Origin: Clostridioides sp. ES-S-0010-02
GTDB lineage: Bacteria > Bacillota > Clostridia > Peptostreptococcales > Peptostreptococcaceae
DNA length: 64,000 nucleotides
Assembly: GCA_020641055.1 (NCBI GenBank)
Contig: CP067345.1
Coordinates: 3,279,317-3,343,316, forward strand
Direction of reading: 5' to 3'
Under the pieces are notes generated by a model. It was not told where the DNA came from. It saw nothing but the letters and a program-made list of their open reading frames with translations, and did not search any database. How positions within the stretch are numbered: position 1 is the first letter of the stretch; every line of letters begins with the position of its first letter. This document shows, piece after piece, positions 7,487 to 47,071 of this stretch. Both the position numbers and the translations under genes were made by a program.

Positions 7487-8740
7487 TCATGTATATATTC
7501 TTATTTTTTTTATTCTGTTTTTTTCTATACTTTCTATACAAAATCTTATATTATCAACTTCAATTACTTCATTTTCTTCTGGCAGTCTGCTTAAATGTCC
7601 AATTATAAACCCACCTATAGAATCAAATTCTTCAGATTCTAAGTTTACACCTATAAGTTCATTGACATCACCAATTTTAGTACTTCCATCTACAATATAC
7701 TCATCTTCTTTTATAACTTGTATTTCATCTTCTTCTTCATCATATTCATCTTCTATATCACCAACAATTACTTCTACTAAATCTTCTATAGTCAAAAGCC
7801 CAGATGTCCCACCATATTCATCTACGACTATAGCCATTTGACTTTTTTCAAGTTTCATCTCTTCAAGAAGCTGTGTTATCTTTTTAAACTCATATGTGAA
7901 AAATGGTTCTCTCATATAATTTTTAATATCAAATGACTCTATTTCCTCATCTGATAAAAATATAATATCTTTTATATTAAGTATTCCTATAATATCATCT
8001 ACAGTTTCTTCATATACAGGCATTCTACTTAGTTTTTCTTCTTTAAATACTTGTATGATTTCATCGTAACTATCTTCCATATCTATAGCTACCATATCTA
8101 TTCTCTGTATCATTGCATTTTTAGCTTGCATATCTCCAAATTCAAATACATTATTTATGATTTCTCTTTCTTCCATTTCAAGGACGCCTTCTTCATGGCT
8201 TACATTTACCATAGTTTTTAATTCCTCTTCAGTTATAAATGACTTGGCTCCTTTATGTGTTATACCAAACAATTTAAATATAACATTCGTAATTATATTA
8301 AATACCCATACTACTGGTCTTAATACAAATATAATTACTCTTATAGGCTTAGATACCAAAAGAGAAACCTTTTCTGAGTTACTTGCTGCTATAGTCTTTG
8401 GAGTAATTTCACCAAATATTAACACTAGTACTGTCATAACAGCTGTAGCAATTGCTACTCCTTTTTCTCCCATCAACCCTATAAACAGTGACGTTGATAT
8501 GGATGTTGCTGCTATATTTACAACATTATTTCCAACTAATATAGAACTTAAAAGTTTATTTGGGCTTTCTATTAATGAACTTACTAACTTAGCTCCTTTG
8601 ACTCCTTCATCTTGCATATATCTTATTCTGATTTTACTTAAAGACATTAAAGCTGTCTCTGATGCTGAGAAAAATGCAGACCCCATAAGTAATACTACTA
8701 AAATTATAATCTGGACCAAACTATTGGGCGATTCCAACAC
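7487..8740 (-). CDS. CNNM/CorC (HlyC)-family membrane protein with CBS domains
   Basis: A 417-residue protein with the classical order DUF21 membrane domain (residues 1-185, about four hydrophobic segments), a CBS pair (about 205-330) and a C-terminal CorC/HlyC domain (about 345-417). The motif IVVDEYGGTSGLLTIEDLVE in the second CBS is typical. The older hemolysin label is historical; bacterial CNNM homologues transport or regulate Mg2+ and related cations. Translation begins at GTG (8740) with an AGGAG box 8 bp upstream. It lies downstream of sbcC with a 132-bp gap and a separate terminator, so it may be an independent unit. Confidence 0.87.
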   Translation of the reverse strand: MLESPNSLVQIIILVVLLMGSAFFSASETALMSLSKIRIRYMQDEGVKGAKLVSSLIESPNKLLSSILVGNNVVNIAATSISTSLFIGLMGEKGVAIATAVMTVLVLIFGEITPKTIAASNSEKVSLLVSKPIRVIIFVLRPVVWVFNIITNVIFKLFGITHKGAKSFITEEELKTMVNVSHEEGVLEMEEREIINNVFEFGDMQAKNAMIQRIDMVAIDMEDSYDEIIQVFKEEKLSRMPVYEETVDDIIGILNIKDIIFLSDEEIESFDIKNYMREPFFTYEFKKITQLLEEMKLEKSQMAIVVDEYGGTSGLLTIEDLVEVIVGDIEDEYDEEEDEIQVIKEDEYIVDGSTKIGDVNELIGVNLESEEFDSIGGFIIGHLSRLPEENEVIEVDNIRFCIESIEKNRIKKIRIYT

Positions 8741-8872
8741 TTACCACACTCCTACTTACTTGTTTTTTTATATTGACATTAATTATAAATAAATTTAATA
8801 TTAGTTTTAATTATATCACAATTATATATTTTTTGGAAATGTTAGATAATATATTCAATTAACATATTGTTT

Positions 8873-11800
8873 CTAACTGTATTCAATTTTTACTTTTGAA
8901 CCTACACCAGCTTCACTTGATGAAACCAATAACTTAACAGGAACCCTATTTTTAAGTTCTTCGACATGACTTATTATACCCACACTTAGATTATTACTAT
9001 GCAATCTTTCCAATGATTCTATAACAATCTCCAAAAGTTCACTGTCCAATGAACCAAATCCTTCATCTAAGAAGAAGAATTCAAGCGGTGCACTTCCTTT
9101 TAATTGTATTTGAGATGAAAGAGCAAGTGCTAATGATAGTGAAGTTAAAAATGTCTCTCCTCCAGATAGAGTATCAATACTTCTTCTTTCTCCTCCATTA
9201 AAATTATCTCTCATTACAAAATTGAGTGTTGAGTCAATTTCAAGTGCATATCTTCCTTTAGTTATTCCTTCTAGTCTTTTTGATGCTTCTAAAGCTATAT
9301 ACTTTAGTTGATTTGTAGAGACATATTCTACAAATTTATTTCCTTGTATACATTTATCTAATTCTTCTAACAAATCTACTTTATGTTCAACCAATCTAAG
9401 TTCCTTATTAAAATCATTTATCTTATCTAAAGAATCTTTTAATGTTAGCAACCTATTTTGATTAGCTCCAATGTCTTTGGATATATTTCCTATTTCTACT
9501 TTCATATTATAAATATTATCTTTTAATTGTTCAAAGTATTCTTTTTTAATAATTCTTCCATTTAATTTTTCTTTTGATGATTTTATTTTAAATGATAATA
9601 ACTTTTGTTCTTCTTCATATTCTAATATTTCTTCAATCAATTTTTTTACTTCTTCACTTTCTAATAACGCTCTTTTTACTGCGTATATACTTTCAAACTT
9701 ATTTTCTGCTAGCAGTTTATTTAATATTATTTTTTGTTCTTTATATTGTTCTTTAGCAGTTTTAAGTCTTCCATCTATATTGTGCTTTTCAGCAAGATTT
9801 TTTTCATATTCTGACCTTTGTTCTTCTAGCTTTACTTTACTAGACTCTTCTTGTTCTAGTATCTTGCATATACGTTCTTCAACACTATGTAAAAGATTTT
9901 CAGCTAAATCACCTTTTGTTATGTTAATTACTTCTTTATACTTACTGTCTCTATTCACTTTTTTTTCTACATATAACTCTCTAGCTTTTATTAACTCTAA
10001 TTCTATTTCATGTAACTTACTTTCTTGTTCTCTTATTTTAATATCTAATAAATCTCTGTTTTTTAATAAGTTTGAGTATCCAGTATTTAATAATTCTAAT
10101 TTTTTTTCATTTTCTCTTATTTCTTCTACTTTTGATGATAGATTTGAGACTTTAGTAATTGTTTTTAATCCTAAATACTCTTGTTTTAATTTCTTACATT
10201 TATGTTCCAGGTTTTCAATTTCGATATTTAAGTCTTTTATTAATTTCTTATAGTTATTCAGACTTTCATTTATCTTTAATTCTTCTTTTTCAATTCTATT
10301 TTTTTCTTCTTTTGCCAATGTTATTTTATTTTCGGTGCTTTCCTTCTCTTTTTCCCACTCTTGAATATTAGACTTAAGTACAGCTAATTTTCTTTGTTCA
10401 TCATCAAGTCTTTTAAATAATTGACTTGATGGAATTTCCCCAAGCTTTCCTTTTACATCTTCCAATTCTTTAGTTTTCATTTTTTCTACAGACACATAAC
10501 CACTTACTTTAGAATTTAATTCTTCAATATTGTGTCTTATGCTTACTTTTTCTTTTTCCAATTTATCCAATTTGTCTTTGACAAAAACTATATTTTCATC
10601 ATAATTAGTTATATTATGATTTTCATGGTGCTTTGAACCACAAACTGGGCATGGCACATTTTCTTTTAATTCACGTCTAAGTTCAGAAGCCAAATTCAAG
10701 TATTTCAGTTCTTCCAACTCTTTCTCAAGGTCTTCTCTATTTTTTCTATTATTCTCAAGCTTTTCATTTACTAGACTTAGCTCTCTCTCAATATTAAATT
10801 TCTTTTCTAAAACTACCTTTAATTCATCTTGTATATTATTTTTCTTACTTTCATTTTCTTTGGTATTATTTGCCTTATTTCTTAATTCAGTTACATATTC
10901 AGATTTTAAAAGCAAATCTTCACTTTTACCAGGACATTTCTTAAGAAGAACATCTAAATGAAGAGACAAACTTTCTAGGTTATGGTTGATATCATTTTTA
11001 TCTCTATCAATATATCTAACTTTTAAATTTATATCTTCTGTATCCTTAGATATTTCTCCTAGCTTATTTATTTTTTGAGTTTTCTCTTCTAGTACTTTAT
11101 TATAATCTTTCTCATATTCATATGCTAAAAATATTTTTTGTTTTAATTCTGCACTTATATTTACTTTATCTATTTTTCCTTCAACTTCTTTTACAGACTT
11201 AATAACTGCTTCTTTTCTAGATTCAGAATCTTTTTTTAGTTTTTCTAACTCCATTTTGTTTTTACTTAAATCAAGGCCATTTTCTTTTAATTCTTTTAAT
11301 TCCTTATCTAGTAAAACTAATTCTTCTTCTAGTTTTATTGCTTGTTGTAACTTTATTTTTTCCTCACTTAACTTAGGAACTTCTTCATTTTTAATTCGAC
11401 TTATTTTTTCATATCTATGCTTTGTAACTTCAAGTTCTTGATTTAAAATTACTAATTTTTTATCTAAATTATCTACTGTGAAACTGTCCTCTTTTATTCT
11501 TTTTTCTAAATTTTGAACTGTGCCTATATATGGGTCCACTCTTCTTGCATTATTATCATTTTCTACAAGATTAGTTTTTTCTTTTATCTCATTGCTTTTT
11601 AGATTAAGTTCATTTTTTCTAAGCTCATTTTTCTCTAGTTTCAATTGTTCCTCATATATTACTTTACTCTCTTCATAAGATTTTTGAGCTAAATCTAAAG
11701 TTTTATTTTTATCTTTTTCTAGTTTTTTTAACTCTATTAGTTCTTGATTGATATTATTATACACTTCTTCCGTAATTCCATCGTATTGACTTAATTTTGA

Positions 11801-36381: not shown

Positions 36382-37356
36382 TTATTTTGTTTCCACTTTA
36401 TTATCTATTAATTGTAAGTTATAGCTTCTAATAACCTCTATTAGTAGTTCTGCATATATACGATTCCCACTTTTATCTTCAGCTGTACTATATCCAGCAT
36501 CTTCTAATGCTTGTGCCTGACTAATATAGTCTTTTGCTTCAAATAATCCATTTTTTCTATACCTTTTATTATTTACTAAAAATAAACCATGGTCTTTTAC
36601 AGAGTCCTCTAATGAGCCATATGACCTAAAACTTGCTACAATTTTTTCATTATAATGTTCAGAAGTTGAAATTGCTACACTTTTTCCCTTCCACGCTTTA
36701 TCTGCCTTTATACCAAATAAATTATTACTTTGCTTTGTAAGTTTAGAATTGCCCCACCCAGATTCTAATATTGCTTGTCCAATTGTTATAGATGGTAATA
36801 TACCATAATCGATATACTCTCTTATAGCTGAGTCTTCTAATTTCTTTATAAACTTAATTTTTTCATCACTATCTTTTAGTTCCTTATTTCCAAGATATGT
36901 GTATTCTAAATCCTTCATGTATTTTTTTGCTCTACTTTTTTGAGAAGCGTCAAATTTCAATTCATTCAATACTTTCTTAAACTTTTTTACCTTGTATACT
37001 TTTTCTCCTTTATCATTTTTGTCTTCTACTATAAATTTTTCACCAACATTTAATGTATCTTTCTTTTTTATATTACTTAAATCTTCATCATAAATTACCA
37101 TATCTATAGCAAGTAACTCCTTCCAGCTTAATTGAACTTTTCCGCCCCCTGCTTCATCAGCTACATCCATATAGTATTCAATTTTAGTAGTTTTTATATC
37201 TCTTACCTTATATAAGTCTTCAAAATATTTTGTTATATTAAAAACAGCTATTATACTTGCTATTATAAACACAGTAATAAATATCTTCTTAAATACAAGC
37301 TTTAACCTTCTTACAGCTTTATTTTTGCCTAAATTTTTTATACATTTTCTAGCCAT
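36382..37356 (-). CDS. Membrane-anchored beta-N-acetylglucosaminidase
   Basis: A 324-residue protein with a basic N-terminus, one membrane segment (about residues 24-42), a linker with an SH3-like or charged region, and a C-terminal Glucosaminidase domain (PF01832, about 175-320). The catalytic motif is AILESGWGNSKL near residue 194, followed by NNLFGIKA and FRSYGSLEDSVKDHGLFL. Such enzymes cut the GlcNAc-MurNAc glycan of peptidoglycan. It is anchored in the membrane with the enzyme outside. It begins 121 bp after the UDP-GlcNAc 2-epimerase stop. The rRNA promoter starts 86 bp after its stop with no clear terminator between. CD1034 in strain 630 is my likely equivalent, from memory. Confidence 0.87.
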   Translation of the reverse strand: MARKCIKNLGKNKAVRRLKLVFKKIFITVFIIASIIAVFNITKYFEDLYKVRDIKTTKIEYYMDVADEAGGGKVQLSWKELLAIDMVIYDEDLSNIKKKDTLNVGEKFIVEDKNDKGEKVYKVKKFKKVLNELKFDASQKSRAKKYMKDLEYTYLGNKELKDSDEKIKFIKKLEDSAIREYIDYGILPSITIGQAILESGWGNSKLTKQSNNLFGIKADKAWKGKSVAISTSEHYNEKIVASFRSYGSLEDSVKDHGLFLVNNKRYRKNGLFEAKDYISQAQALEDAGYSTAEDKSGNRIYAELLIEVIRSYNLQLIDNKVETK

Positions 37357-37477: not shown

Positions 37478-38587
37478 TCAATTAAATTTTTTTACTATTA
37501 TATCCACTATATACTTGCTTGCATTTCCATCCCCATATGGATTTGAAGCTTTACTCATTTGAATATAATTATTTCTATTTGTTAATAATTGTTTTACAGA
37601 ATTATATATATTTTCTTCATTTGTACCTATTAATTTAAGTGTTTTTGCTTCAATACCTTCTATTCTTTCTGTCTTTTTTCTTAACACAAGTACTGGTTTC
37701 CCTAGCGATGGAGCCTCTTCTTGTATTCCACCACTATCAGTCATTATCATATATGATTTGTTTAAAAAATTGTGAAAATCAACTACCTCCAAAGGCTCTA
37801 TAATGTGAATTTTTTTAGTGTTTTTCCCAAATACTTCACTGGCTATACTACGTATTTCAGGATTTAAATGTATAGGATATACTACCTGTACATCTTCAAA
37901 TTCATCTACTATTCGCTTTACAGCTCTAAATATATTTCTCATAGGTTCTCCTAAGTTTTCCCTCCTATGAGAAGTCAATAAAATCATTCTGTCATCACCA
38001 AGCTTATCCATTATAGGGTGAGTATAATTTTCTCTTATTGTCATCTTTAATGCATCAATTGCAGTATTGCCTGTTACAAATATATTGTCTTCAGACTTTC
38101 CTTCTGAAATTAGGTTTTGTTTTGCCAAATTAGTAGGAGCAAAGTGTATATCAGCAATAATTCCTGTAAGTTGTCTATTTAGTTCTTCTGGAAATGGAGA
38201 ATATTTATCATAAGTTCTAAGTCCTGCTTCTATATGACCTACTAGAACTTTACTATAAAATGCAGTTAAACTAGTAGCTAGAGTTGTCGTTGTATCTCCA
38301 TGTACTAAGATTACGTCTGGCTTTTCTTTATCTATAATCATGGGAAGTTCATTTAAAACTTTACATGTTATATCATTTAAACTTTGCCCTTTTTTCATTA
38401 TGTCTAAATCATAGTCTACATTTACATTGAAAGTTTCTATAACCTGGTCAAGCATTTCTCTATGTTGTGCTGTCACACACACAATACTTTTTATATGCTC
38501 TCTTTTTTCAAGTTCCTTAATTAAAGGAGCTACTTTGATAGCTTCAGGTCTAGTTCCAAATACAGTCATAACCTTGATGTCATCCAT
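37478..38587 (-). CDS. wecB: UDP-N-acetylglucosamine 2-epimerase (non-hydrolysing)
   Basis: 369 residues. It converts UDP-GlcNAc to UDP-ManNAc in the cytoplasm. Family motifs: VFGTRPEAIKVAPLI at residues 9-23, VTAQHREMLDQ near 39, VHGDTTTTLA near 95, HIEAGLRTYDKYSPFPEELN near 118-138 (catalytic region), LLTSHRREN near 203 and DSGGIQEEAPSLGKPVLVLR near 283. It is last in the exopolysaccharide gene run, 57 bp after the GH113-like gene. That suggests the polymer or a wall glycan uses ManNAc, though it may also supply teichoic-acid-like polymers elsewhere. An AGGAGAG box precedes the ATG. Confidence 0.92.
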   Translation of the reverse strand: MDDIKVMTVFGTRPEAIKVAPLIKELEKREHIKSIVCVTAQHREMLDQVIETFNVNVDYDLDIMKKGQSLNDITCKVLNELPMIIDKEKPDVILVHGDTTTTLATSLTAFYSKVLVGHIEAGLRTYDKYSPFPEELNRQLTGIIADIHFAPTNLAKQNLISEGKSEDNIFVTGNTAIDALKMTIRENYTHPIMDKLGDDRMILLTSHRRENLGEPMRNIFRAVKRIVDEFEDVQVVYPIHLNPEIRSIASEVFGKNTKKIHIIEPLEVVDFHNFLNKSYMIMTDSGGIQEEAPSLGKPVLVLRKKTERIEGIEAKTLKLIGTNEENIYNSVKQLLTNRNNYIQMSKASNPYGDGNASKYIVDIIVKKFN

Positions 38588-38644
38588 TTATATCTCTCCT
38601 AATCAACTATTTATATACTATAATTGTCTATTTATATAACAAAT

Positions 38645-39730
38645 TTATTTATACCAAGATTTAATAATCTTTATACTCTCTTTTGATGGATAAAAGTTTT
38701 TTTCTTCATCAATTTTACCTACACAAAACACAGAAAAACCATTTATCCAATCCTCTTTTTCAAAAACTCTCCTATATGCTTCAAAGCATCTCGCTTGTTC
38801 TTCATCATTTATAATTTCTGAAGGAACATGATTCCATGGTTGAGAACTTGCATTTTCTCTATTTGAAAAGCCTAATTCTCCAAAAAATATCGGTTTACGA
38901 TGAACCTTATAAAGATTATATAGTTCTTCTTTTATATTTTGTCCTCTATTATTCACAGTAGATGAATGTAAAGCAGAAACCAATTCATCAACTGTATTGA
39001 CAGATTTATCACTTAACTCAAAATACGCTGCTATGGATATAAAGTCTAACTTATCAAAAAAATTATTATTTAGTTTTTGTTCATAAGATAATTTACTATT
39101 TAAATCACCTTTTCTTGTATACCACCAATTAGTTCTATATGTTACAAGACCATCAAATTTTGATTGTACAAAATCTATTATTTCACCCCAATTTTGTTGA
39201 TATTCTTCTAGGTATACAAAATTAGAGCCTACATTTAAAACCTTTACATCCAATGGATTTGCTACATCTTCTATAAGTTCATTTAATACAGTATTTTGCC
39301 AGTTATAAAAAAATCTTTTTTTATTCATAGGATTCCAATCTGTCTCATACAACTCTCCATTTTTTATCCATGGATATGCTTCCAATATTGTGGAAATACC
39401 CTGCTTGTTTAATTTTTTTATTAGTTTGATTGCCTTTTTTTTGCTATTAGTATCTATTGACATGATATCAGAATTAATATCATCTACAGTTATAACTATA
39501 GGTACATTTATTGTATTCAATCCTAGCTTATCTATATCCTTCATAACTTGATTTATTTCATAATCTATAGATAAATTGGCTGATTTAATCTTGCCCTCAT
39601 ACTGGCTATCTACTAAACTTCTATTTTTTAATTCAATATTTACAAAATAAATTATAAATACAAAAGTTAAAATAATTCCTAAGATTAAAATATTTTTCTT
39701 AAATTTAAATTTGTTTATATTTTTATTCAA
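38645..39730 (-). CDS. Membrane-anchored GH113-like glycoside hydrolase, acid/base residue apparently missing
   Basis: 361 residues: an N-terminal membrane anchor (about 13-32), then a TIM-barrel protein resembling GH113. Barrel landmarks: VLNVGSNF (165-171), TYRTNWW (198-203), LDFISIAAYFELSD (228-241) and PIFFGELGF (280-288). In GH113 the fourth strand reads roughly IGTE, its Glu being the acid/base; here the matching position is Asn170. The nucleophile Glu285 is kept. It occupies the position of the hydrolase found in related exopolysaccharide loci (ydaJ, pssZ). I infer polymer trimming or, if inactive, glycan binding. Family call is by motif, without a search. Confidence 0.6.
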   Translation of the reverse strand: MNKNINKFKFKKNILILGIILTFVFIIYFVNIELKNRSLVDSQYEGKIKSANLSIDYEINQVMKDIDKLGLNTINVPIVITVDDINSDIMSIDTNSKKKAIKLIKKLNKQGISTILEAYPWIKNGELYETDWNPMNKKRFFYNWQNTVLNELIEDVANPLDVKVLNVGSNFVYLEEYQQNWGEIIDFVQSKFDGLVTYRTNWWYTRKGDLNSKLSYEQKLNNNFFDKLDFISIAAYFELSDKSVNTVDELVSALHSSTVNNRGQNIKEELYNLYKVHRKPIFFGELGFSNRENASSQPWNHVPSEIINDEEQARCFEAYRRVFEKEDWINGFSVFCVGKIDEEKNFYPSKESIKIIKSWYK

Positions 39731-39767
39731 ATCATATACCTCATTTTAAAATAATAAGTTTACTGTA

Positions 39768-41849
39768 TTATCTTCTTTTATATTTCTTGATAAATAATAT
39801 TGATAGAATTATAGCTACAGTTATAACAATAAAAGAAACAACAAAAAAAACTTTAGCTGTTTTACTTATATTCAATTCTCTACTTGAATCTTTTATTTCT
39901 TTATTTATTTTTGTATTGTAATTTAAATCTTTTACTTCTCCATATTCATCAATTGTTAGTGTATCTCCTTTTAAATCATTGCCTTGACTTTTATTTAATA
40001 AATAATCCATTCCTAAATATAAATTTTTTTCATCTATTGAGCTGATTACCATAATATTTCTTTGATTATTGTAAGATGATTTTATCAATTGTATTGATGA
40101 AATGTTTTTACCATAATCGTCAATAAAGCTTATCTTATCATTTGATAAAAAGTTAGAATAGTTTTTATTGAACTTTACATTTAAGTTGCTATTTATCATC
40201 TTTATAACAGAGTTGTTAAGTGGTACTCCAAAAACTATAATATTCGTATCTTTATATTTATTGATAAACTCTTTTCCTCTAATTACATTTATATTTCCTT
40301 CATGCGAACTAATATTTGCACCTAAATTAACACCTAGTCTGGACATCCATGTCATTGCTTGAGACCCAGAATAATCTGGCATTATTACAGTTAAATCATT
40401 AAACTTATCATTCTTAACAAATGGATATGGATAACTTTCAAAATTCAGTGACTGATTTTCTTTTGTCGATAATTCCAAGTAAGAACTATTTGACACGTAT
40501 GCCCAAGGATTATTACTTTCTCTTGTAACACAATTTAAATTTTTTATATTTAAATTAAACACCAACTTAACTTGATAGTAGTTTTTATTATCTATATCTT
40601 TAGGTATTTTTAATTCTAGCTTGTCATTGTCTGAATATGCTCTATCTAATTTTTTACTTCCTACAACAACATCATTTATATATACTGTAACTAATGACTT
40701 GTCAAAATCCAAATTATCAGAATATCTTAAATTTAAAACAATCTTTGAACCATTATTTAACTTTCTACCTTTTGGTATTCTAACATCAAATAAAGCTTGT
40801 TGACTAAATGCACCTTCCAATAAAATATCTGCATATCCTAATTCTTCTAAAGTCATATGTCCTAAATTTAATTCTTGTTCACCATCAATCTTTATATTAG
40901 TATCTTTATTTACAAGTATTGATGATGATAGAATTTGATTAGAAAGTCTATTGTCTATCAATACTTTAGATGCTTTTATTAAATCTTCTTCATTACTACC
41001 TATTACCACCAGCATCTTCTTATTATTGTTATACGGAGAATTTATCTGCTTAATTATACAATTTGAAGATAATAAAGTTTGTTCCTTTGCACTTAGAATA
41101 TTCAAAATTTCTTCTGCTGTATTTTCAGGTTTACCAATGTATATAATGTTATCATCTGACCAGTTCTTCATTTCTGAATATAATTTAACGTCAAACTGTA
41201 ACTTATCGTTCTGTGTTATTTTTCCAAATTCTGATGCTAAATTAAACACAGCTGTAGATTCACCTCTACTCATATTATCTGGAACTACTAAAGTTGTATC
41301 TAATTTAAAATTTTCTTCAATTTCTATATATGGATATGGATACTCATTTATTGAATTGCCCAATTTTTTCTGCTTATATCTAATTGATGTATAAGATTCC
41401 TTATGAATAACCATCCAGTTCCCAGTGTTAGAATCATCCTGACATATTTTGTCAGATATTGTTTTATATGCTTTTACTTTTATTTCATTATATCCTTGTA
41501 TTATATAATCTTTAGGTATTGATACTTTTAATGTATCTTTATAATCTTTTTTGGCATTTAGTTTAATCGATTTTATTGGTACATTATTTATTAAGATAGT
41601 TAAACTTGAAACATCTCCATTTAATATTTGACTCTTACTAAAATTAAGATTAAATAATACTTCCTCAACATCCCAATTTTTGTTTACTTCAAAAAAAGTA
41701 CTATTGCTACCTATAACTCCATCAATAGTTACATCTCTTTCAAACTTATAATTTTTGACTTTGGTTTCATCAGCTTTTACTTCATCTACAAATGCGATAT
41801 TTGAAAAAAACAATACTAAAGATACAATTAATACAACAAATTTTTTCAT
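39768..41849 (-). CDS. BcsB-like exopolysaccharide synthase accessory protein (YdaN-like)
   Basis: 693 residues: a signal peptide (1-26), two repeats of a jelly-roll plus flavodoxin-like unit typical of BcsB (PF03170), and a single C-terminal membrane helix (about 667-688) with a short basic tail. The repeated pattern, a SYPYPY- or EYPYPY-type turn then VVPDNMSRGESTAVFNLASE in the first half and VIMPDYSGSQAMTWMSRLG in the second, marks the duplication. BcsB guides the nascent polysaccharide from the synthase across the envelope. It begins 22 bp after the synthase gene. In Gram-positives it sits on the outer face of the membrane. The ATG has a GGAGGT box. Confidence 0.82.
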   Translation of the reverse strand: MKKFVVLIVSLVLFFSNIAFVDEVKADETKVKNYKFERDVTIDGVIGSNSTFFEVNKNWDVEEVLFNLNFSKSQILNGDVSSLTILINNVPIKSIKLNAKKDYKDTLKVSIPKDYIIQGYNEIKVKAYKTISDKICQDDSNTGNWMVIHKESYTSIRYKQKKLGNSINEYPYPYIEIEENFKLDTTLVVPDNMSRGESTAVFNLASEFGKITQNDKLQFDVKLYSEMKNWSDDNIIYIGKPENTAEEILNILSAKEQTLLSSNCIIKQINSPYNNNKKMLVVIGSNEEDLIKASKVLIDNRLSNQILSSSILVNKDTNIKIDGEQELNLGHMTLEELGYADILLEGAFSQQALFDVRIPKGRKLNNGSKIVLNLRYSDNLDFDKSLVTVYINDVVVGSKKLDRAYSDNDKLELKIPKDIDNKNYYQVKLVFNLNIKNLNCVTRESNNPWAYVSNSSYLELSTKENQSLNFESYPYPFVKNDKFNDLTVIMPDYSGSQAMTWMSRLGVNLGANISSHEGNINVIRGKEFINKYKDTNIIVFGVPLNNSVIKMINSNLNVKFNKNYSNFLSNDKISFIDDYGKNISSIQLIKSSYNNQRNIMVISSIDEKNLYLGMDYLLNKSQGNDLKGDTLTIDEYGEVKDLNYNTKINKEIKDSSRELNISKTAKVFFVVSFIVITVAIILSILFIKKYKRR

Positions 41850-41871
41850 GTTAATACCTCCTGTACATGAA

Positions 41872-43137
41872 TTAAAATCTTTCCGTTTTATACCATTTAA
41901 CTTCTCTTTTGAAAATTATATCTTTTAAATACTCTACCATTCCTTTTATAGCAACAAATAGCCATAGTTGAGAATATGTAAAATACATAAGTGCTACTAT
42001 AAATATATTCTCAATTGTAGCCTCACCTTTTTCTATAGTTAAGCTTATACTCACTTCTATGATAAATAAAATGTATGATAGTATCCATATTATAATAAAG
42101 TTGATTGGAATAGAAATCTCTATTAATTTAAATACACTTAAAACAAATAAAATATCTGAGATAATAACAGATGTTAAAAATAGAAAATATACAGAAAAAA
42201 AGTAGGCTATATCAAATACAATTTTATTTTTACCTTGTTTAAATATATTTTTTATATATTTCATTAAAACGTATATATTCCCTTTTGCCCATCTGGTCCT
42301 TTGCTTTATCCAAACTTTAATAGTTTCTGGTTCTTGTTCCCATGTTATCGACTGTGGCACAAGCTTTATTTTATATCCTAACTTATATATTCTAAAGCTA
42401 ATTTCTGTATCTTCTGCAATTGCTTTGCTATCCCATCCCCCAATTTCTTCTATAATACTTTTTCTCAATATAAAGTTAGTTCCTGGTATTGTACATAAAT
42501 TAAATAATTGCCATCTACCAGCTTGAGACATCCATTGAAAGCTTAAGGTTTCAATATTTATAAATTTCGTCAATAGATTTTTACTTTTATTTCTAGTTCT
42601 AAACTTTCCAATAACAGCACCTAATTCATCATCTAGAACTATTGTTTGTATTAAATACCTAAGTGCATCTCTATCTGGGGTATTATCTGCATCATATACT
42701 GCTATAAACTCTCCTTTTGAAATTTTATATCCAATATTTAATGCATTTGATTTTCCCTTACCTCCAGTCATGCTATCTGTATTTATAATAGTAAAATTAT
42801 AGTTTTTGTATTTACTCTTTATGCTTTCTAAAATTTCTCTACTATTATCAGAAGAGTTGTCATTTATCACAATAAGTTCCATTTTATCTTTAGGATAATT
42901 AAGTAGTAATAAAGATTCCACAGTCCTACCTATCACCTTTGCTTCATTATGAGCAGGAACAAGTATTGATACCACTGGATATCTATCAATTTTTTTTATT
43001 TTTTTATCAAAGTTCTTAAAATAAAATAGATATCCCCCCATAGCTAAAACTATATTTATAAGTAGTAAAGACCATATACTAAATAAACTAAATATAAATA
43101 GATACTCTGATACATTTAATCCTCTCATAAAATTCAC
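41872..43137 (-). CDS. Processive family-2 glycosyltransferase, exopolysaccharide synthase (YdaM-like)
   Basis: 421 residues. One membrane segment at the N-terminus (about 10-38), a GT2 catalytic domain (about 50-300) and three to four C-terminal membrane segments. All processive-synthase motifs are present: VINDNSSD, AVYDADNTPD (DxD-type), AEDTEIS (TED) and QRTRWAKG (QxxRW). There is no PilZ domain, so control by c-di-GMP must come from another subunit. It is 22-40 bp from neighbours encoding BcsB-like and deacetylase-like proteins. The product is unknown; similar synthases make cellulose, poly-GlcNAc or mixed polymers. Confidence 0.87.
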   Translation of the reverse strand: MNFMRGLNVSEYLFIFSLFSIWSLLLINIVLAMGGYLFYFKNFDKKIKKIDRYPVVSILVPAHNEAKVIGRTVESLLLLNYPKDKMELIVINDNSSDNSREILESIKSKYKNYNFTIINTDSMTGGKGKSNALNIGYKISKGEFIAVYDADNTPDRDALRYLIQTIVLDDELGAVIGKFRTRNKSKNLLTKFINIETLSFQWMSQAGRWQLFNLCTIPGTNFILRKSIIEEIGGWDSKAIAEDTEISFRIYKLGYKIKLVPQSITWEQEPETIKVWIKQRTRWAKGNIYVLMKYIKNIFKQGKNKIVFDIAYFFSVYFLFLTSVIISDILFVLSVFKLIEISIPINFIIIWILSYILFIIEVSISLTIEKGEATIENIFIVALMYFTYSQLWLFVAIKGMVEYLKDIIFKREVKWYKTERF

Positions 43138-43177
43138 CTAAAATCTTTTTAAATATTAGCACTTCATCTAAACTTTT

Positions 43178-44842
43178 TTATTTTAAAAATTTCTTTTTAT
43201 CTATTTTTTTAAAATATATAAATATAATTACAAAAACTAAAACACTTATAGATACTATTGATATTAAAATTTTGCTGATTTTAGATATAGATTTAAACCT
43301 AGTTTCATCTTCTTTATTTTTTTCTAAATTTCTATCATAGTTGACTTTAATTTCATTACCATTATTTCTTATTTGTATCTCATCAACCTTTACCCAATTA
43401 TCAAAATCTCTTAAATCCAAAAACTCTATATTTTGTTTTTCTAGGTATTCTATTGTATCTTTCAAATATTTTATATCTAAATACGAATGAAAGAAAAAAC
43501 CACCACTAAAACCTCTGACAATAGATAGTGTATCTAAATTTTCTTTTATGTTTTGAAAAGTAAGTTTATCTTCTGGGTCTATATATCCCAAATTTTCAGG
43601 AATGAATATGTTAAATTCTTCTGTATCCCTAATTACATATGGATACGTATTTGTGCTAAATTTTTTATCATTATTTTGATGTTGCCCTACATAAGTAGAA
43701 AAATATTTTTTTAATTCTTTATATCCTTCAGATTCTATTGCATAATGAGGAGCTTCAAATGCAAGAGGATAAATTCCATTTTCTATACATATTCTAAGCC
43801 CTTTTAAAACCCTATCTTTCACAAAAATTGTCATATTTTCTTTTAATGGCTCATCTTTTTCCCCATCCCAAAATTCATATCCTTCTCCAGAAACTTCTTC
43901 ATTTTTATATTTATGTGTGTATCCATGTAATATCACTGTACCACCCTTATCTTGCATATATTTTACTGCTTTAACAATCTCAGGGCTTTCTGATAAAGTC
44001 GTTATCTTATGATTTTTAGGATTTACATAAGCTGGTATCAAAGCAATTGTAAATGGTATATTCTTATTGCTTAAATAATCAGCTATTTTTATTAATTCTT
44101 TTGGTTCTCTAAATGCATGTACATCTTCTATTCTTACGAATATACGACCTTTATTGAAAGTTTTAACATTAAACACATCATTTAGTGAATCACAAAATAT
44201 ATAAAATAAAACACCATCTAAATCCAACTTTGACACATAGAAAAGATTTTTATCATTTACAATATACGGATATTCATTTACTGTATCACTAATAGTTCCT
44301 ATAATTTTATTGTTTTTATCTGTTGATTTTACAATATTAAATAAATAGTGTTCCTCCAAGTTATACTCTTTACCTTTATAGGTTACACTGTTTATATTAT
44401 TTGTTTTTTTTACATATTCTAAGTTATATTTCTTATATTCCAACAGATTTTCTATACCATGCCCTAACCAGCAGATGACTCCTTTATAGGAATCTAATGA
44501 ATTAATTAAGGTGTTAGTTTTTTCATCATTACTATATGAATTTTCATTTATTCCTATAATAAATATATGACTATAATAAGTTTCATTTATCTCATTATCA
44601 TAGTTGCTTAATTTTAATAACTCTATATTTGAGCTAAATCTACCTAATAGAGTCCTCACAATTTTCAAGATATCTCGATTGTAAGATGTTTCTTTCTTAG
44701 AATCATAAATAACCAATACCTTATTTGTATTAGAATAAGTCTCTACCGCATATGAGCATATATTAAAATTTGACATTATCAATACTATTAAAAGCACAAT
44801 TAACACTTTAGATAAATTTTTATTGTAAGTTTTAAACATCAT
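43178..44842 (-). CDS. DUF2334 polysaccharide deacetylase-like membrane protein (YdaL-like)
   Basis: About 554 residues: signal anchor (about 10-32), an N-terminal receiver-like domain (40-225), a DUF2334 NodB-like domain (about 230-470) and a C-terminal membrane helix (about 522-545). Metal-site residues typical of the deacetylase fold are visible: VRIEDVH (Asp240) and LHGYTH (His306 and His310). It probably removes acetyl groups from the growing polymer outside the membrane. I prefer the ATG at 44842 (GAGGA box 8 bp upstream) over 44860, giving an 11-bp overlap with the GGDEF gene. It corresponds in position to B. subtilis ydaL. Confidence 0.8.
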   Translation of the reverse strand: MMFKTYNKNLSKVLIVLLIVLIMSNFNICSYAVETYSNTNKVLVIYDSKKETSYNRDILKIVRTLLGRFSSNIELLKLSNYDNEINETYYSHIFIIGINENSYSNDEKTNTLINSLDSYKGVICWLGHGIENLLEYKKYNLEYVKKTNNINSVTYKGKEYNLEEHYLFNIVKSTDKNNKIIGTISDTVNEYPYIVNDKNLFYVSKLDLDGVLFYIFCDSLNDVFNVKTFNKGRIFVRIEDVHAFREPKELIKIADYLSNKNIPFTIALIPAYVNPKNHKITTLSESPEIVKAVKYMQDKGGTVILHGYTHKYKNEEVSGEGYEFWDGEKDEPLKENMTIFVKDRVLKGLRICIENGIYPLAFEAPHYAIESEGYKELKKYFSTYVGQHQNNDKKFSTNTYPYVIRDTEEFNIFIPENLGYIDPEDKLTFQNIKENLDTLSIVRGFSGGFFFHSYLDIKYLKDTIEYLEKQNIEFLDLRDFDNWVKVDEIQIRNNGNEIKVNYDRNLEKNKEDETRFKSISKISKILISIVSISVLVFVIIFIYFKKIDKKKFLK

Positions 44843-45680
44843 ACTGCAATTCCTCTTCAACCATATTCTTAAAATTTATACTGTCTCCAAAAGTATCTTT
44901 ATACTCTAAAATTGCAATTTTCACATCTATATTTACATATCTTCCTTTATTATTTAAATCTAAGTTTAACTCTTTTATCCTCTTCTTTATTCTATCTCTA
45001 ACAACTTTTGAGCCTTCTAATGCTGTGTTTGGCATCAGTATTCCTATCATATCTTTTTGTAAACTGTATATTATATCTTCATTTCTTGTACATTCCACAA
45101 TATTTGAACTAATATATTTTACTATTTTGTTAGTTTTACTTTCACCAAATATAGTCTGTAGGTTTTCATAATATGGTAATTTTACTATCATAAGAGAAAA
45201 AGTAGTAGTATATCTGACTGACTTACTTATTTCCATATTTACATCATTATAAAAAATTTTTAAGTTTCTAAGCCCAGTTTCATTATCTATAGTTACTAGT
45301 TCCTTATATTGTTCAGTTAATTTTATATTTGTAAGTTGTAATTCATTTATGTTTTTATTTATGTTCCCCATTATAATTGAAGATATTGGTATTGCTATTA
45401 TCCATATATATGATATAAACTCAACATCTATATTGTGAGTAATATTGTTATATAAAATATAGGATGTATATATAAATATAGTTATTGAACTTGTTATTAA
45501 ACCAACTACTGAGTTTGATAAATAAGTTAACATTATTATAAAAAAAATAACTGATAACATTATAAATACATTCAGTTTATTTTCTGTTCTGATAGATAGT
45601 ATTACTATCCCAACAATTAAAAATATAAAAACAAACAAACTTAACATTAATAAATCTATCTTTTTATTTGTCCCATTCAT
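44832..45680 (-). CDS. Membrane protein with degenerate GGDEF domain and intact I-site (YdaK-like c-di-GMP receptor)
   Basis: 282 residues: four to five membrane segments (about 8-105), then a GGDEF-fold domain (about 120-282) with NETGLRNL near 133. Where GGDEF should stand (208-212) the sequence is QKDMI, so cyclase activity is not expected. Nine residues before, RNED (199-202) is a perfect RxxD inhibitory site at the correct five-residue spacing, the site that binds c-di-GMP. B. subtilis YdaK and Listeria PssE are built the same way. It is first in the exopolysaccharide operon. The RBS GGAGGTG lies 14 bp from the ATG, longer than usual. Confidence 0.82.
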   Translation of the reverse strand: MNGTNKKIDLLMLSLFVFIFLIVGIVILSIRTENKLNVFIMLSVIFFIIMLTYLSNSVVGLITSSITIFIYTSYILYNNITHNIDVEFISYIWIIAIPISSIIMGNINKNINELQLTNIKLTEQYKELVTIDNETGLRNLKIFYNDVNMEISKSVRYTTTFSLMIVKLPYYENLQTIFGESKTNKIVKYISSNIVECTRNEDIIYSLQKDMIGILMPNTALEGSKVVRDRIKKRIKELNLDLNNKGRYVNIDVKIAILEYKDTFGDSINFKNMVEEELQYDV

Positions 45681-45815
45681 TTTTTATAAATTTACACCTC
45701 CAATTATTTTATTAAGTTGCCCATTTTTTCTAATTATTATTAAAATCAATATGTAAATAATTTTTTAACTTAATAAAAATAAATTAAATTATATATATAT
45801 AAATAATAAAAAAAC

Positions 45816-45851
45816 AAGCAAATATTTAAGATTAATGCTATCTATTTGCTT
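45816..45851 (-). promoter_or_regulatory. Terminator-like hairpin in the leader of the exopolysaccharide operon
   Basis: Arms AAGCAAAT (45816-45823) and ATTTGCTT (45844-45851). On the minus strand a T7 run follows, so it looks like an intrinsic terminator 136 bp before the first gene. It could end a short leader RNA or act as an attenuator. No c-di-GMP-I or c-di-GMP-II aptamer core is visible in the 338-bp gap. The remaining leader is AT-rich without other structure that I can support. Confidence 0.45.
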
Positions 45852-45939
45852 ATCTTTAAAATAATTATCATGTATGTATTTATAGTAAATAAATTATATA
45901 TATCTATAACATACACATATTTATGTATAAGCAAAAAAA

Positions 45940-45988
45940 TAAAACTGTTCAATAATTAGAAAATAATTTCTAAATAAGAACAGTTTTA
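45940..45988 (-). terminator. Terminator downstream of potD
   Basis: Arms TAAAACTGTTC (45940-45950) and GAACAGTTTTA (45978-45988), with an inner TTAGAAA/TTTCTAA pair. On the minus strand a run of Ts follows. It lies 31 bp past the potD stop. Confidence 0.8.
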
Positions 45989-46018
45989 TTAAGTAAATAT
46001 TATTAAATAAATAATACT

Positions 46019-47071
46019 CTATTTTGATTTTAACTCTATCCAAGCCTTATCGTATAACTTGATGTTTTCACCAATATCTTCAAAAGTTTCACATTTAGCA
46101 AGTACATCCTTAGATGGATATGCAACAGGATTGCTAGTTATTTCTGGGTCCAATAACTTTAGTGCTCCTGTATTAGGTGTTGAATATCCAATATACTCAG
46201 CATTTACTTTTGCATTTTCTGGGTCTAGCAAGAAGTTTATAAATAACTCAGCTTCTTTTTTATTTTGTGCTGTTGTAGGTACACACATAGCATCCACCCA
46301 CTTGTTTGTACCTTCTTTAGGTATAGCATAATCAAGGTCAGGATTTTGATCCATCAATGTAACTGCATCTCCAGAATACAACATCCCCATTGCAACTTCT
46401 CCACCTAATAATCTATCTTTTCCTTCGTCGTTTACATATGCTAAGACCAAATCCTTTTGCTTTATTAAAAGATTTTTTGCTTCATTTATTTCTTTTGGAT
46501 TTACACTATTCATACTGTATCCTAATTTTTTAAGGGTTATCCCTATAGTATCTCTAACAGAGTCAAACATCATCATGTTTCCTTTATATTTTGGATTCCA
46601 AAGTATATTCCAACTATCTATAGGCTCTTTAACTTCTTTTTTATTATATAAGATTCCAAGAGTACCCCACATATATGCAACACTATATTCATTAGTTTCA
46701 TCATATACAGGATTTAAAAAACTCTTATCTAAATACTTCATATTAGGTATGTTTTTAAAATCTATTTTTTCCAAAAGACCTTCATTTTTCATTTTTTCCA
46801 CCATATAATCTGATGGAAAAACTAAATCATAATGAGTGCTACCACTCTTAACCTTTTGATACATCATTTCATTAGTATCATAAGTTGAATACTGAACTTC
46901 TATTCCTGTTTCTTTTTCAAACTTATCTATAAGAGATTCATCTATATAATCACCAACATTATATACATTTAGAACCTTTGTAGAATCTGTTGATTTATTA
47001 CATCCTGTAAATAAAGTTGCTGTAATCATACCTACAGTTATAAGGGATATTATTTTCTTAAACTTAATCAT
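46019..47071 (-). CDS. potD: Spermidine/putrescine-binding lipoprotein PotD
   Basis: 350 residues with a lipoprotein signal peptide ending at LFTGC (Cys24). The rest is a periplasmic-binding-type fold. Typical PotD/PotF features: NVYNVGDYIDESLIDKFEKE at the start, VFPSDYMVEKM near 85, YMWGTLGILYNKK near 130, and GDAVTLMDQNPDLDYAIPKEG near 228. It captures polyamines outside the membrane for PotBC. Its ATG overlaps the potC stop by one base (TAATG). It is the last gene of the five-gene unit and is followed by a strong terminator. Confidence 0.92.
   Translation of the reverse strand: MIKFKKIISLITVGMITATLFTGCNKSTDSTKVLNVYNVGDYIDESLIDKFEKETGIEVQYSTYDTNEMMYQKVKSGSTHYDLVFPSDYMVEKMKNEGLLEKIDFKNIPNMKYLDKSFLNPVYDETNEYSVAYMWGTLGILYNKKEVKEPIDSWNILWNPKYKGNMMMFDSVRDTIGITLKKLGYSMNSVNPKEINEAKNLLIKQKDLVLAYVNDEGKDRLLGGEVAMGMLYSGDAVTLMDQNPDLDYAIPKEGTNKWVDAMCVPTTAQNKKEAELFINFLLDPENAKVNAEYIGYSTPNTGALKLLDPEITSNPVAYPSKDVLAKCETFEDIGENIKLYDKAWIELKSK

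Follow-up and report, generated by a model that had tools for sequence, protein, structure and literature searches.

A ydaKLMN/pss-type operon of Clostridioides that likely makes an N-acetylmannosamine polymer under c-di-GMP command

The window, a 64,000-nt stretch of Clostridioides DNA, carries six collinear genes on the minus strand at 37478-45680 (Table 1). From the GGDEF gene to the epimerase gene, neighbors are spaced by -29 (an overlap), 40, 22, 37, and 57 bp, with start codons assigned mechanically. These positions confirm the run of six genes with gaps of at most 57 bp described in an earlier sequence-only reading, and the placement of the GT2, BcsB, and DUF2334 proteins in their families holds as well, each scoring over its Pfam cut-off. 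The cut-offs are 23.8 bits for GGDEF, 26 for DUF2334, 23.3 for Glycos_transf_2 (GT2 protein, 104.7 bits), 21 for BcsB, 27 for GH113, and 30.6 for Epimerase_2 (epimerase, 412.3 bits); the NCBIfam wecB cut-off is 210.15 bits. The BcsB-like protein is the sole BcsB match in the genome and has hydrophobic segments at both ends (1-25 and 661-691). DUF2334 and BcsB-like partners share a gene run with the GT2 gene, as in ydaKLMN/pss-type synthases, and the operon is of this already known kind. A downstream glucosaminidase gene was considered as a seventh member and set aside. It is intact at locus L037, where the operon has decayed, and so apparently lies outside the system; at locus L044, it sits on the opposite side of the core.

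Table 1. Positions in the window of the operon genes and the downstream neighbor
Feature	Position	Strand	Evidence
Membrane GGDEF protein, 282 aa	44832..45680	-	Pfam PF00990, 63.9 bits
DUF2334 protein, 560 aa	43178..44860	-	Pfam PF10096, 186.5 bits
GT2 processive synthase, 421 aa, without PilZ	41872..43137	-	Pfam, NCBIfam
BcsB-like protein, 693 aa	39768..41849	-	Pfam PF03170, 240.3 bits
GH113-like protein, 361 aa	38645..39730	-	Pfam PF22612, 74.2 bits; PDB alignments
Non-hydrolysing UDP-GlcNAc 2-epimerase (WecB/MnaA), 369 aa	37478..38587	-	NCBIfam TIGR00236, 516.7 bits
Glucosaminidase, 121 bp downstream of operon	36382..37356	-	Pfam PF01832

Among loci from 25 other genomes of the family with a BcsB match, 18/25 keep the five core genes together in the same order, so the cluster is not a matter of chance. 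The exceptions are three loci in which a GH8-like gene is present and GH113 is absent (L043, L051, L052), one with GGDEF-GT2-BcsB only (L038), one interrupted by a contig end (L036), one decayed operon (L037, from genome G010), and one with none of the core genes (L055). A wider set holds 91 distinct loci, for which the named scan gave the best 80 of at least 555 relatives. Many of these loci are from Paenibacillus, so counts over the 91 are not independent, and some are truncated where a contig stops, which makes the counts of absences upper bounds.

Within Clostridioides, the operon is kept in 7/8 genomes, six readable in full and one (G009) from the GT2 gene onward because of a contig end. 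In the eighth, G010, the GT2 and DUF2334 genes are gone and the epimerase is a remnant at the operon. This one decayed copy is what a system dormant or decaying in the lineage might look like, and the C. difficile ortholog is reported to be up in a codY mutant of UK1 and not in that of 630delta-erm (0.49-1.06). We nevertheless regard dormancy or decay as quite unlikely: the operon persists in the other genomes, the six ORFs of the window are all full length, and the I-site, metal motif, and nucleophile site described below are all retained.

Regulatory signals were sought around the operon. No c-di-GMP riboswitch was found in the window at Rfam gathering thresholds, and a permissive Rfam scan of 44500-46300 gave one match, a chance microRNA. 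Promoter (58 against 81.7 expected from shuffles) and terminator scans (2 against 1.4, sd 1.2) gave no excess over shuffles, and we therefore claim neither element. Of the CodY boxes published for CD10280-10290, one occurs once in the window (44862-44876), differing at a single position and lying close to where the GGDEF gene ends. Since 31/100 shuffles give at least one such match and none of the other published CD10280-10290 boxes tried occurs in the window within one mismatch, we do not claim CodY control here.

The membrane GGDEF protein looks like a c-di-GMP receptor rather than a cyclase. Behind N-terminal hydrophobic stretches between residues 4 and 107, it has a degenerate active site, QKDMI (208-212), and an I-site, RNED (199-202). 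Among the loci listed, the I-site R and D are present in 90/90 readable GGDEF rows, and the catalytic motif GG[DE]EF is present in 0/90. In B. subtilis, YdaK, a degenerate-GGDEF effector for the polymer of the yda operon, needs these same I-site residues for the polymer to be produced (PMC5422440). Listeria PssE, with an RxxD five residues ahead of its dead motif, binds c-di-GMP and is required for the Listeria polymer (PMC4125290). The I-site and active-site state thus supports the separate receptor proposed in the sequence-only reading, and we propose that the protein is of the YdaK/PssE type. Its C. difficile ortholog, R20291_0884 (CD630_10280), is called a di-GMP cyclase in PMC6353076, which would make the protein an active diguanylate cyclase and leave the operon to be controlled by other means. 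The passage naming it there gives no assay for R20291_0884, and with the I-site invariant and the catalytic motif absent from every readable row, the printed label looks wrong and an active cyclase most improbable.

The DUF2334 protein has hydrophobic segments near both ends (14-40 and 524-554), and phmmer found no solved relative up to E 1. In the window, its CE4-like metal motif of D246, H312, and H316, which we take to be the metal-binding Asp and two His of CE4-like deacetylases, is intact. Overall, only 19/82 rows among the loci listed keep it, in an alignment that is uncertain in far rows (~20% identity) and that has a gap at the second motif in the L052 row. We propose that the protein is a surface deacetylase, presumably of the YdaL/PssB type.

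The GH113-like protein, with an N-terminal hydrophobic segment (8-35), scores over the family cut-off, and in this respect the earlier label of GH113-like stands. That label hides, however, the absence of the acid/base Glu: the site is Asn (N170) in 27/27 rows, and the nucleophile-site Glu (E285) is kept in 27/27. E151 of PDB 4cd6, which with E231 we take to be the catalytic Glu pair of GH113, aligns to the Asn. In a class-level alignment of 10 of 15 GH113 matches, omitting the window's own and four partial matches below the cut-off, the acid/base site is Glu in 8/10. Because Asn replaces the acid/base Glu in every row, the protein is not a standard mannanase. The altered subfamily has further members in listed loci of Romboutsia, Paraclostridium, Paenibacillus, and Cohnella, and GH8-like and GH113-like proteins occur together in 0/91 of the distinct loci listed. 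For two additional GH113-like proteins (L159, L160), the surrounding 19.5 kb gave no match to the GT2, BcsB, GGDEF, or DUF2334 profiles. At the acid/base site of these two, the class-level alignment shows Ser (L150) and Asn (L142). The altered subfamily is a ready enzymology question.

Apart from the operon's epimerase, no copy in the genome scores over the cut-off. Each of the seven operon-keeping Clostridioides genomes likewise has a single copy over the cut-off, always the operon's own. Across the family, an epimerase over the cut-off is found in 23/24 genomes with a full-length BcsB match versus 29/47 others (Fisher p 0.0017, in a test that ignores relatedness). A WecG/TagA-type ManNAc transferase was not found in the genome with a model that matches 7/14 control genomes. 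By score, the sole strong NDP-sugar dehydrogenase falls with the UDP-glucose enzymes (543 bits with TuaD, against 181 and 158 bits with the UDP-ManNAc types; all under their respective cut-offs).

Taking together the directly observed gene families, receptor-like I-site, intact metal motif, lost acid/base residue, and single epimerase that decays jointly with the operon, we consider it likely that the operon makes an N-acetylmannosamine polymer under c-di-GMP command. In the scheme that we infer, the epimerase would convert UDP-GlcNAc to UDP-ManNAc. The GT2, a proposed UDP-ManNAc polymerase of the YdaM/PssC type in a family whose sugar specificity is not readable from sequence with certainty, would polymerize it and pass the chain across the membrane with its BcsB-like partner. 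Pfam gave no PilZ match in the synthase up to E 1, and because it is without this domain, the GGDEF protein would be the sensor, binding c-di-GMP through its I-site and activating the synthase. Outside, the DUF2334 protein may deacetylate the chain in part, and the GH113-like protein, anchored in the membrane, may handle it by release, trimming, or binding. Against a ManNAc polymer, the 29/47 family genomes without the operon that have an epimerase can be cited, and a lone epimerase could supply a ManNAc user of another family. Moreover, the epimerase gene adjoins the operon, in several arrangements, in 12/91 distinct loci listed and is absent from the stretch taken in 79/91, an upper bound.

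Two other products have to be weighed. The synthase could make poly-beta-1,6-GlcNAc (PNAG/PIA-like), with the epimerase serving something else. PgaC_IcaA (TIGR03937) is the best NCBIfam match of the GT2, at 191.6 bits, and the operon holds a putative deacetylase partner, which is consistent with PNAG biology. That score is far under the cut-off of 422.3, however, the GT2 shares 59% identity over 416 aa with that of a Listeria ilorinensis locus (L127), and the genome's only epimerase over the cut-off sits in the operon and is broken along with it in G010; we judge PNAG unlikely. Cellulose or another glucan is less likely still. The BcsB-like partner and a distant CelA similarity (95.7 bits) speak for it, and PMC7710045 recounts that others had earlier listed the genes as BcsA/B of a cellulose system. 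The CelA score falls short of its cut-off of 699.1 bits, however, and a glucan would leave the epimerase unexplained. A separate PilZ-carrying synthase in the genome (L157) scores 395.4 bits with CelA, also under the cut-off. The clostridial ccs locus is likewise a c-di-GMP-tied GT2 synthase system of Clostridia; ccsZABHI has PilZ in the synthase, a GH5 hydrolase, an MBOAT/DHHW pair, and no BcsB homolog (PMC7710045). None of PilZ, GH5, MBOAT, or DHHW was found by Pfam among the six proteins, and we reject identity with ccs. The operon is distinct from ccs, as had been remarked from the sequence, because the PilZ-carrying CelA-like synthase lies separately in the same genome.

If the ManNAc-polymer reading is true, the ccs glucan of C. 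difficile and its sister species would be joined by a second surface polysaccharide gated by c-di-GMP, and transcript data on the "cyclase" CD630_10280 would need rereading as polymer-operon data. A single epimerase also makes a clean genetic test possible, as its removal is expected to abolish one polymer only. Tentatively, we would go further: Clostridioides UDP-ManNAc may serve only this c-di-GMP-gated polymer, which, being deacetylated, would be positively charged, unlike that of Listeria, and the GH113-like partner, with its invariant Asn for the acid/base Glu, may be a new kind of protein. It might use a relocated acid on ManNAc/ManN chains, with E117 and E238, among its always-acidic positions, as candidates, or be a non-hydrolytic chain-binding subunit that replaces the GH8-like hydrolase.

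Known systems place the operon further. The order GGDEF-DUF2334-GT2-BcsB, which we take to be that of B. subtilis ydaK-L-M-N, matches the window. Compared by description with yda, the operon lacks YdaJ, a hydrolase presumably of GH8, has a GH113-like gene on the opposite end, and carries an additional epimerase gene. The earlier claim of a shared gene order therefore stands for ydaKLMN and in part only for Listeria pss: in L. ilorinensis L127, the GGDEF gene is last and a PssA-like membrane protein of ~500 aa is first. Searched without a positive control, the window's genome gave no match to the PssA-like protein. Beyond the GT2, identities to L127 fall to 24% (BcsB), 20% (DUF2334), and 30% (GGDEF); its DUF2334 metal motif is lost, whereas that of the window is intact, and its 19-kb stretch has no epimerase. 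The differing hydrolase family and added epimerase noted earlier are thus upheld. The Listeria Pss product is given as a beta-1,4-ManNAc chain with alpha-1,6-galactose (PMC5422440, citing others). In E. coli, the NGR system (nfrA/nfrB/wecB) is a c-di-GMP-dependent surface glycan that needs WecB and for which ManNAc is proposed (PMC8669472); compared by description, its Gram-negative export proteins are unlike the window operon. Closest is C. difficile 630, for which Scott et al. (2020, PMC7710045) described a BcsA/B-GH113-WecB-deacetylase set and proposed a polymer rich in ManNAc and deacetylated in part. Gene families and proposed product are the same as here, so that neither the C. difficile gene set nor the polymer proposal is new. 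Between the window, apparently from a sister species, and L031, taken for C. difficile, the operon proteins share 82-92% identity. The GGDEF gene, the epimerase copy number, and the lost GH113 acid/base residue go unmentioned in the section of PMC7710045 on the cluster. What we add is the I-site and motif state of the GGDEF protein, the epimerase copy number and decay, the Asn of the GH113-like protein, and the DUF2334 motif counts.

The six collinear minus-strand ORFs that the sequence-only reading had taken for an exopolysaccharide operon were recovered exactly at its coordinates, with neighboring genes overlapping or at most 57 bp apart (-29, 40, 22, 37 and 57 bp). Pfam and NCBIfam profile searches backed every family it had named, the Pfam scores being 63.9 bits for GGDEF, 186.5 for DUF2334, 104.7 for GT2, 240.3 for BcsB, 74.2 for GH113 and 412.3 for the epimerase, which also scored 516.7 bits against the NCBIfam wecB equivalog (cut-off 210.15). 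Upstream lie a potD-like gene (NCBIfam potD 277.5 bits, below the cut-off of 582) and permease genes; downstream are a glucosaminidase gene, 121 bp from the operon, and an rRNA operon. The BcsB gene is the sole match in this 4,259,110-base genome. A PilZ-carrying, CelA-like GT2 synthase, possibly CcsA, is encoded elsewhere in it (L157).

Coordinates of the operon and of related features
Feature	Locus	Position
Six-gene operon, minus strand	window	37478-45680
GGDEF gene	L031	5009-5857
DUF2334 gene	L031	5829-7511
Exact CodY box matches	L031	4831, 5813, 5870, 7407
Decayed operon	L037 (G010)	7814-10716
GH26 protein with CBM35	L076	13565-15163
Operon-type GH113-like protein	L159	9186-10373
Operon-type GH113-like protein	L160	9543-10790
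PilZ-carrying CelA-like GT2 synthase	L157	G000:C1:1416934

The 71 Peptostreptococcaceae genomes covered include eight from the genus of the window; BcsB was matched in 26/71, and above cut-off in 25. Among 25 family stretches fetched besides the window's own, 18 carry GGDEF-DUF2334-GT2-BcsB-GH113 in the same order. In three (L043, L051, L052) GH113 is missing and a GH8-like gene is present, one (L038) has only GGDEF-GT2-BcsB, one (L036) is truncated by a contig end, one (L037) is decayed and one (L055) lacks the core gene set. A GT2-alignment scan of named genomes, from which the best 80 of at least 555 relatives were used, returned many Paenibacillus and a single Listeria (L. ilorinensis). 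Together the two sets gave 103 GT2-holding loci, or 91 after merging 12 pairs taken as one genome each because their contigs are equally long. In this combined set, GGDEF genes were found in 89 loci, BcsB in 88, DUF2334 in 81 and an epimerase in 12, absences being upper bounds because some loci end at contig edges. The operon is a new member of the known ydaKLMN/pss kind of synthase, and an orthologue is already in print. A PssA-like membrane protein of ~500 aa, counted like the GH8-like proteins with a custom five-seed profile, occurs in L127, L071, L073 and 55 further distinct loci (58/91); two members tested had no Pfam match, and none was seen in the Clostridioides operon.

The C. difficile orthologue of the GGDEF gene (CD630_10280, R20291_0884) is labeled a di-GMP cyclase in print. 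In the window protein, residues 4 to 107 include three hydrophobic stretches; the I-site RNED occupies 199-202, and QKDMI follows at 208-212. We aligned it with 89 relatives, the best 80 of at least 555 included, and with one decayed remnant that has no letters in this region; the I-site R and D are kept in 90/90 readable rows, and GG[DE]EF is present in none. Listeria PssE has the same layout, with the dead motif DKDDA at 208 and RxxD five residues upstream, binds c-di-GMP in vitro and is required for polymer synthesis (PMC4125290). In YdaK, I-site residues R202 and D205 are required for polymer production (PMC5422440). By sequence, the window protein should be a receptor rather than a cyclase, as the sequence-only reading had predicted.

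Among the matches listed, from which own-genome records may be excluded, the closest named GT2 relatives are three Clostridioides difficile records (91-93% identical). CodY boxes have been printed for C. difficile CD10280-10290, which stand at 0.49-1.06 in a 630delta-erm codY mutant (PMC12772354). Four of the five match L031, a locus from the genus of the window, exactly if either strain variant is allowed (three per single strain), beside and inside the GGDEF and DUF2334 genes; for the fifth, neither strand has a match with one mismatch or fewer. We infer that L031 is C. difficile proper and that these genes are the orthologues of CD630_10280 and CD10290. Identity between the six L031 proteins and their window counterparts is 82-92%; the window would therefore come from a sister Clostridioides species. 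CDR20291_0884 has been listed as a signaling protein with a predicted RR_1586 site (PMC6222199).

In each of seven operon-keeping Clostridioides genomes (one, G009, visible only from GT2 on), TIGR00236 gave exactly one match above cut-off, at the operon, and any further matches scored ~20 bits. In G010 the operon has decayed: a 92-aa GGDEF remnant is left, the BcsB, GH113-like and epimerase ORFs are shortened, and GT2 and DUF2334 are absent, while potC, potD and the glucosaminidase gene are still full length. In G010, TIGR00236 matched a 149-aa remnant at this locus in two pieces and one site elsewhere at 20 bits, with nothing above cut-off. Profile searches of the window's genome found no WecG/TagA-type transferase, and its single strong NDP-sugar dehydrogenase scored highest against the UDP-glucose 6-dehydrogenase model (543 bits, cut-off 700), ahead of a pair of models for UDP-ManNAc dehydrogenase (181 and 158 bits, with cut-offs of 750 and 459); no further UDP-ManNAc user was seen within these families. 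Across the family, an above-cut-off epimerase accompanies full-length BcsB in 23/24 genomes (one as two pieces on different contigs) and occurs in 29/47 others (Fisher p 0.0017, relatedness ignored). In Clostridioides the epimerase gene lies downstream of GH113. L045, L047 and L048 carry it upstream of GGDEF and co-directional with it, and in L076 it comes after the GGDEF and GH26 genes. In Acetobacterium L132 and L135 it directly follows the GGDEF gene but is encoded on the other strand, together with a GH8-like gene. The GH26 protein of L076, which belongs to another mannanase-type family, adjoins the related operon of that locus. The window and Listeria GT2 proteins share 59% identity, and Listeria Pss is described as a beta-1,4-ManNAc chain with alpha-1,6-galactose (PMC5422440, citing others). 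Together, the single operon epimerase, the lack of another user in these families, the BcsB association, the epimerase placements and the Listeria likeness favor a ManNAc polymer as the predicted product.

GH113-like and GH8-like genes are mutually exclusive in the combined set (26 and 54 loci, both in 0, neither in at most 11), which suggests that the GH113-like protein may occupy the place of the hydrolase, although the loci are related to one another. Three of four GH8-like seeds tested exceeded the Pfam GH8 cut-off; the fourth had no match. The best solved relatives of the GH113-like protein are GH113 mannanases (e.g., 4cd6, 3civ), in which we take E151 to be the acid/base and E231 the nucleophile. 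PDB alignments pair E231 with window E285 and E151 with N170. The acid/base site holds Asn and the nucleophile site Glu in 27/27 distinct rows (window plus 26 relatives, best 80 of at least 555 included), where D56, D65, E117, E129, E175, D229, E238, E269, E285 and E311 are always acidic. Of 15 class-level GH113 matches, 10 were aligned: eight have Glu at the acid/base site and two, both of the operon-like type, Asn or Ser. GH113 enzymes use a pair of catalytic Glu, and conservation of the catalytic residues is good across the clades commented on in PMC9032380. The protein looks like a separate subfamily, using another acid or non-hydrolytic, and the argument that GH113 comprises endo-mannanases only (PMC7710045) is therefore not directly transferable. 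Operon-type GH113-like proteins also occur in L159 and L160, in stretches where the other core genes are absent.

The window DUF2334 protein keeps D246, H312 and H316. This D/H/H metal motif is intact in 19/82 rows (best 80 of at least 555 included), all from clostridial-type genomes, and is missing in the Listeria row and every gene-bearing Paenibacillus and Cohnella row listed, where alignment of far rows is weak. Deacetylation is therefore probably dispensable to the system in general; the Clostridioides polymer may be charged and partly deacetylated.

The available parts of the open-licence literature yielded no experimental study of the operon, which is no proof of absence. Its main reading is already covered by PMC7710045; new here are the correction of the cyclase label to receptor, the finding of a single epimerase that decays along with the operon, the loss of the GH113 acid/base residue and the patchy occurrence of the deacetylase metal motif. 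In that work, genes for a GH113, a homologue of WecB and a deacetylase of CE4-like type accompany the BcsA/B pair of C. difficile 630, and the proposed product is an exopolysaccharide rich in ManNAc and partly deacetylated (PMC7710045). The window operon shares with this cluster the BcsA/B-type pair and the GH113, WecB and deacetylase families.
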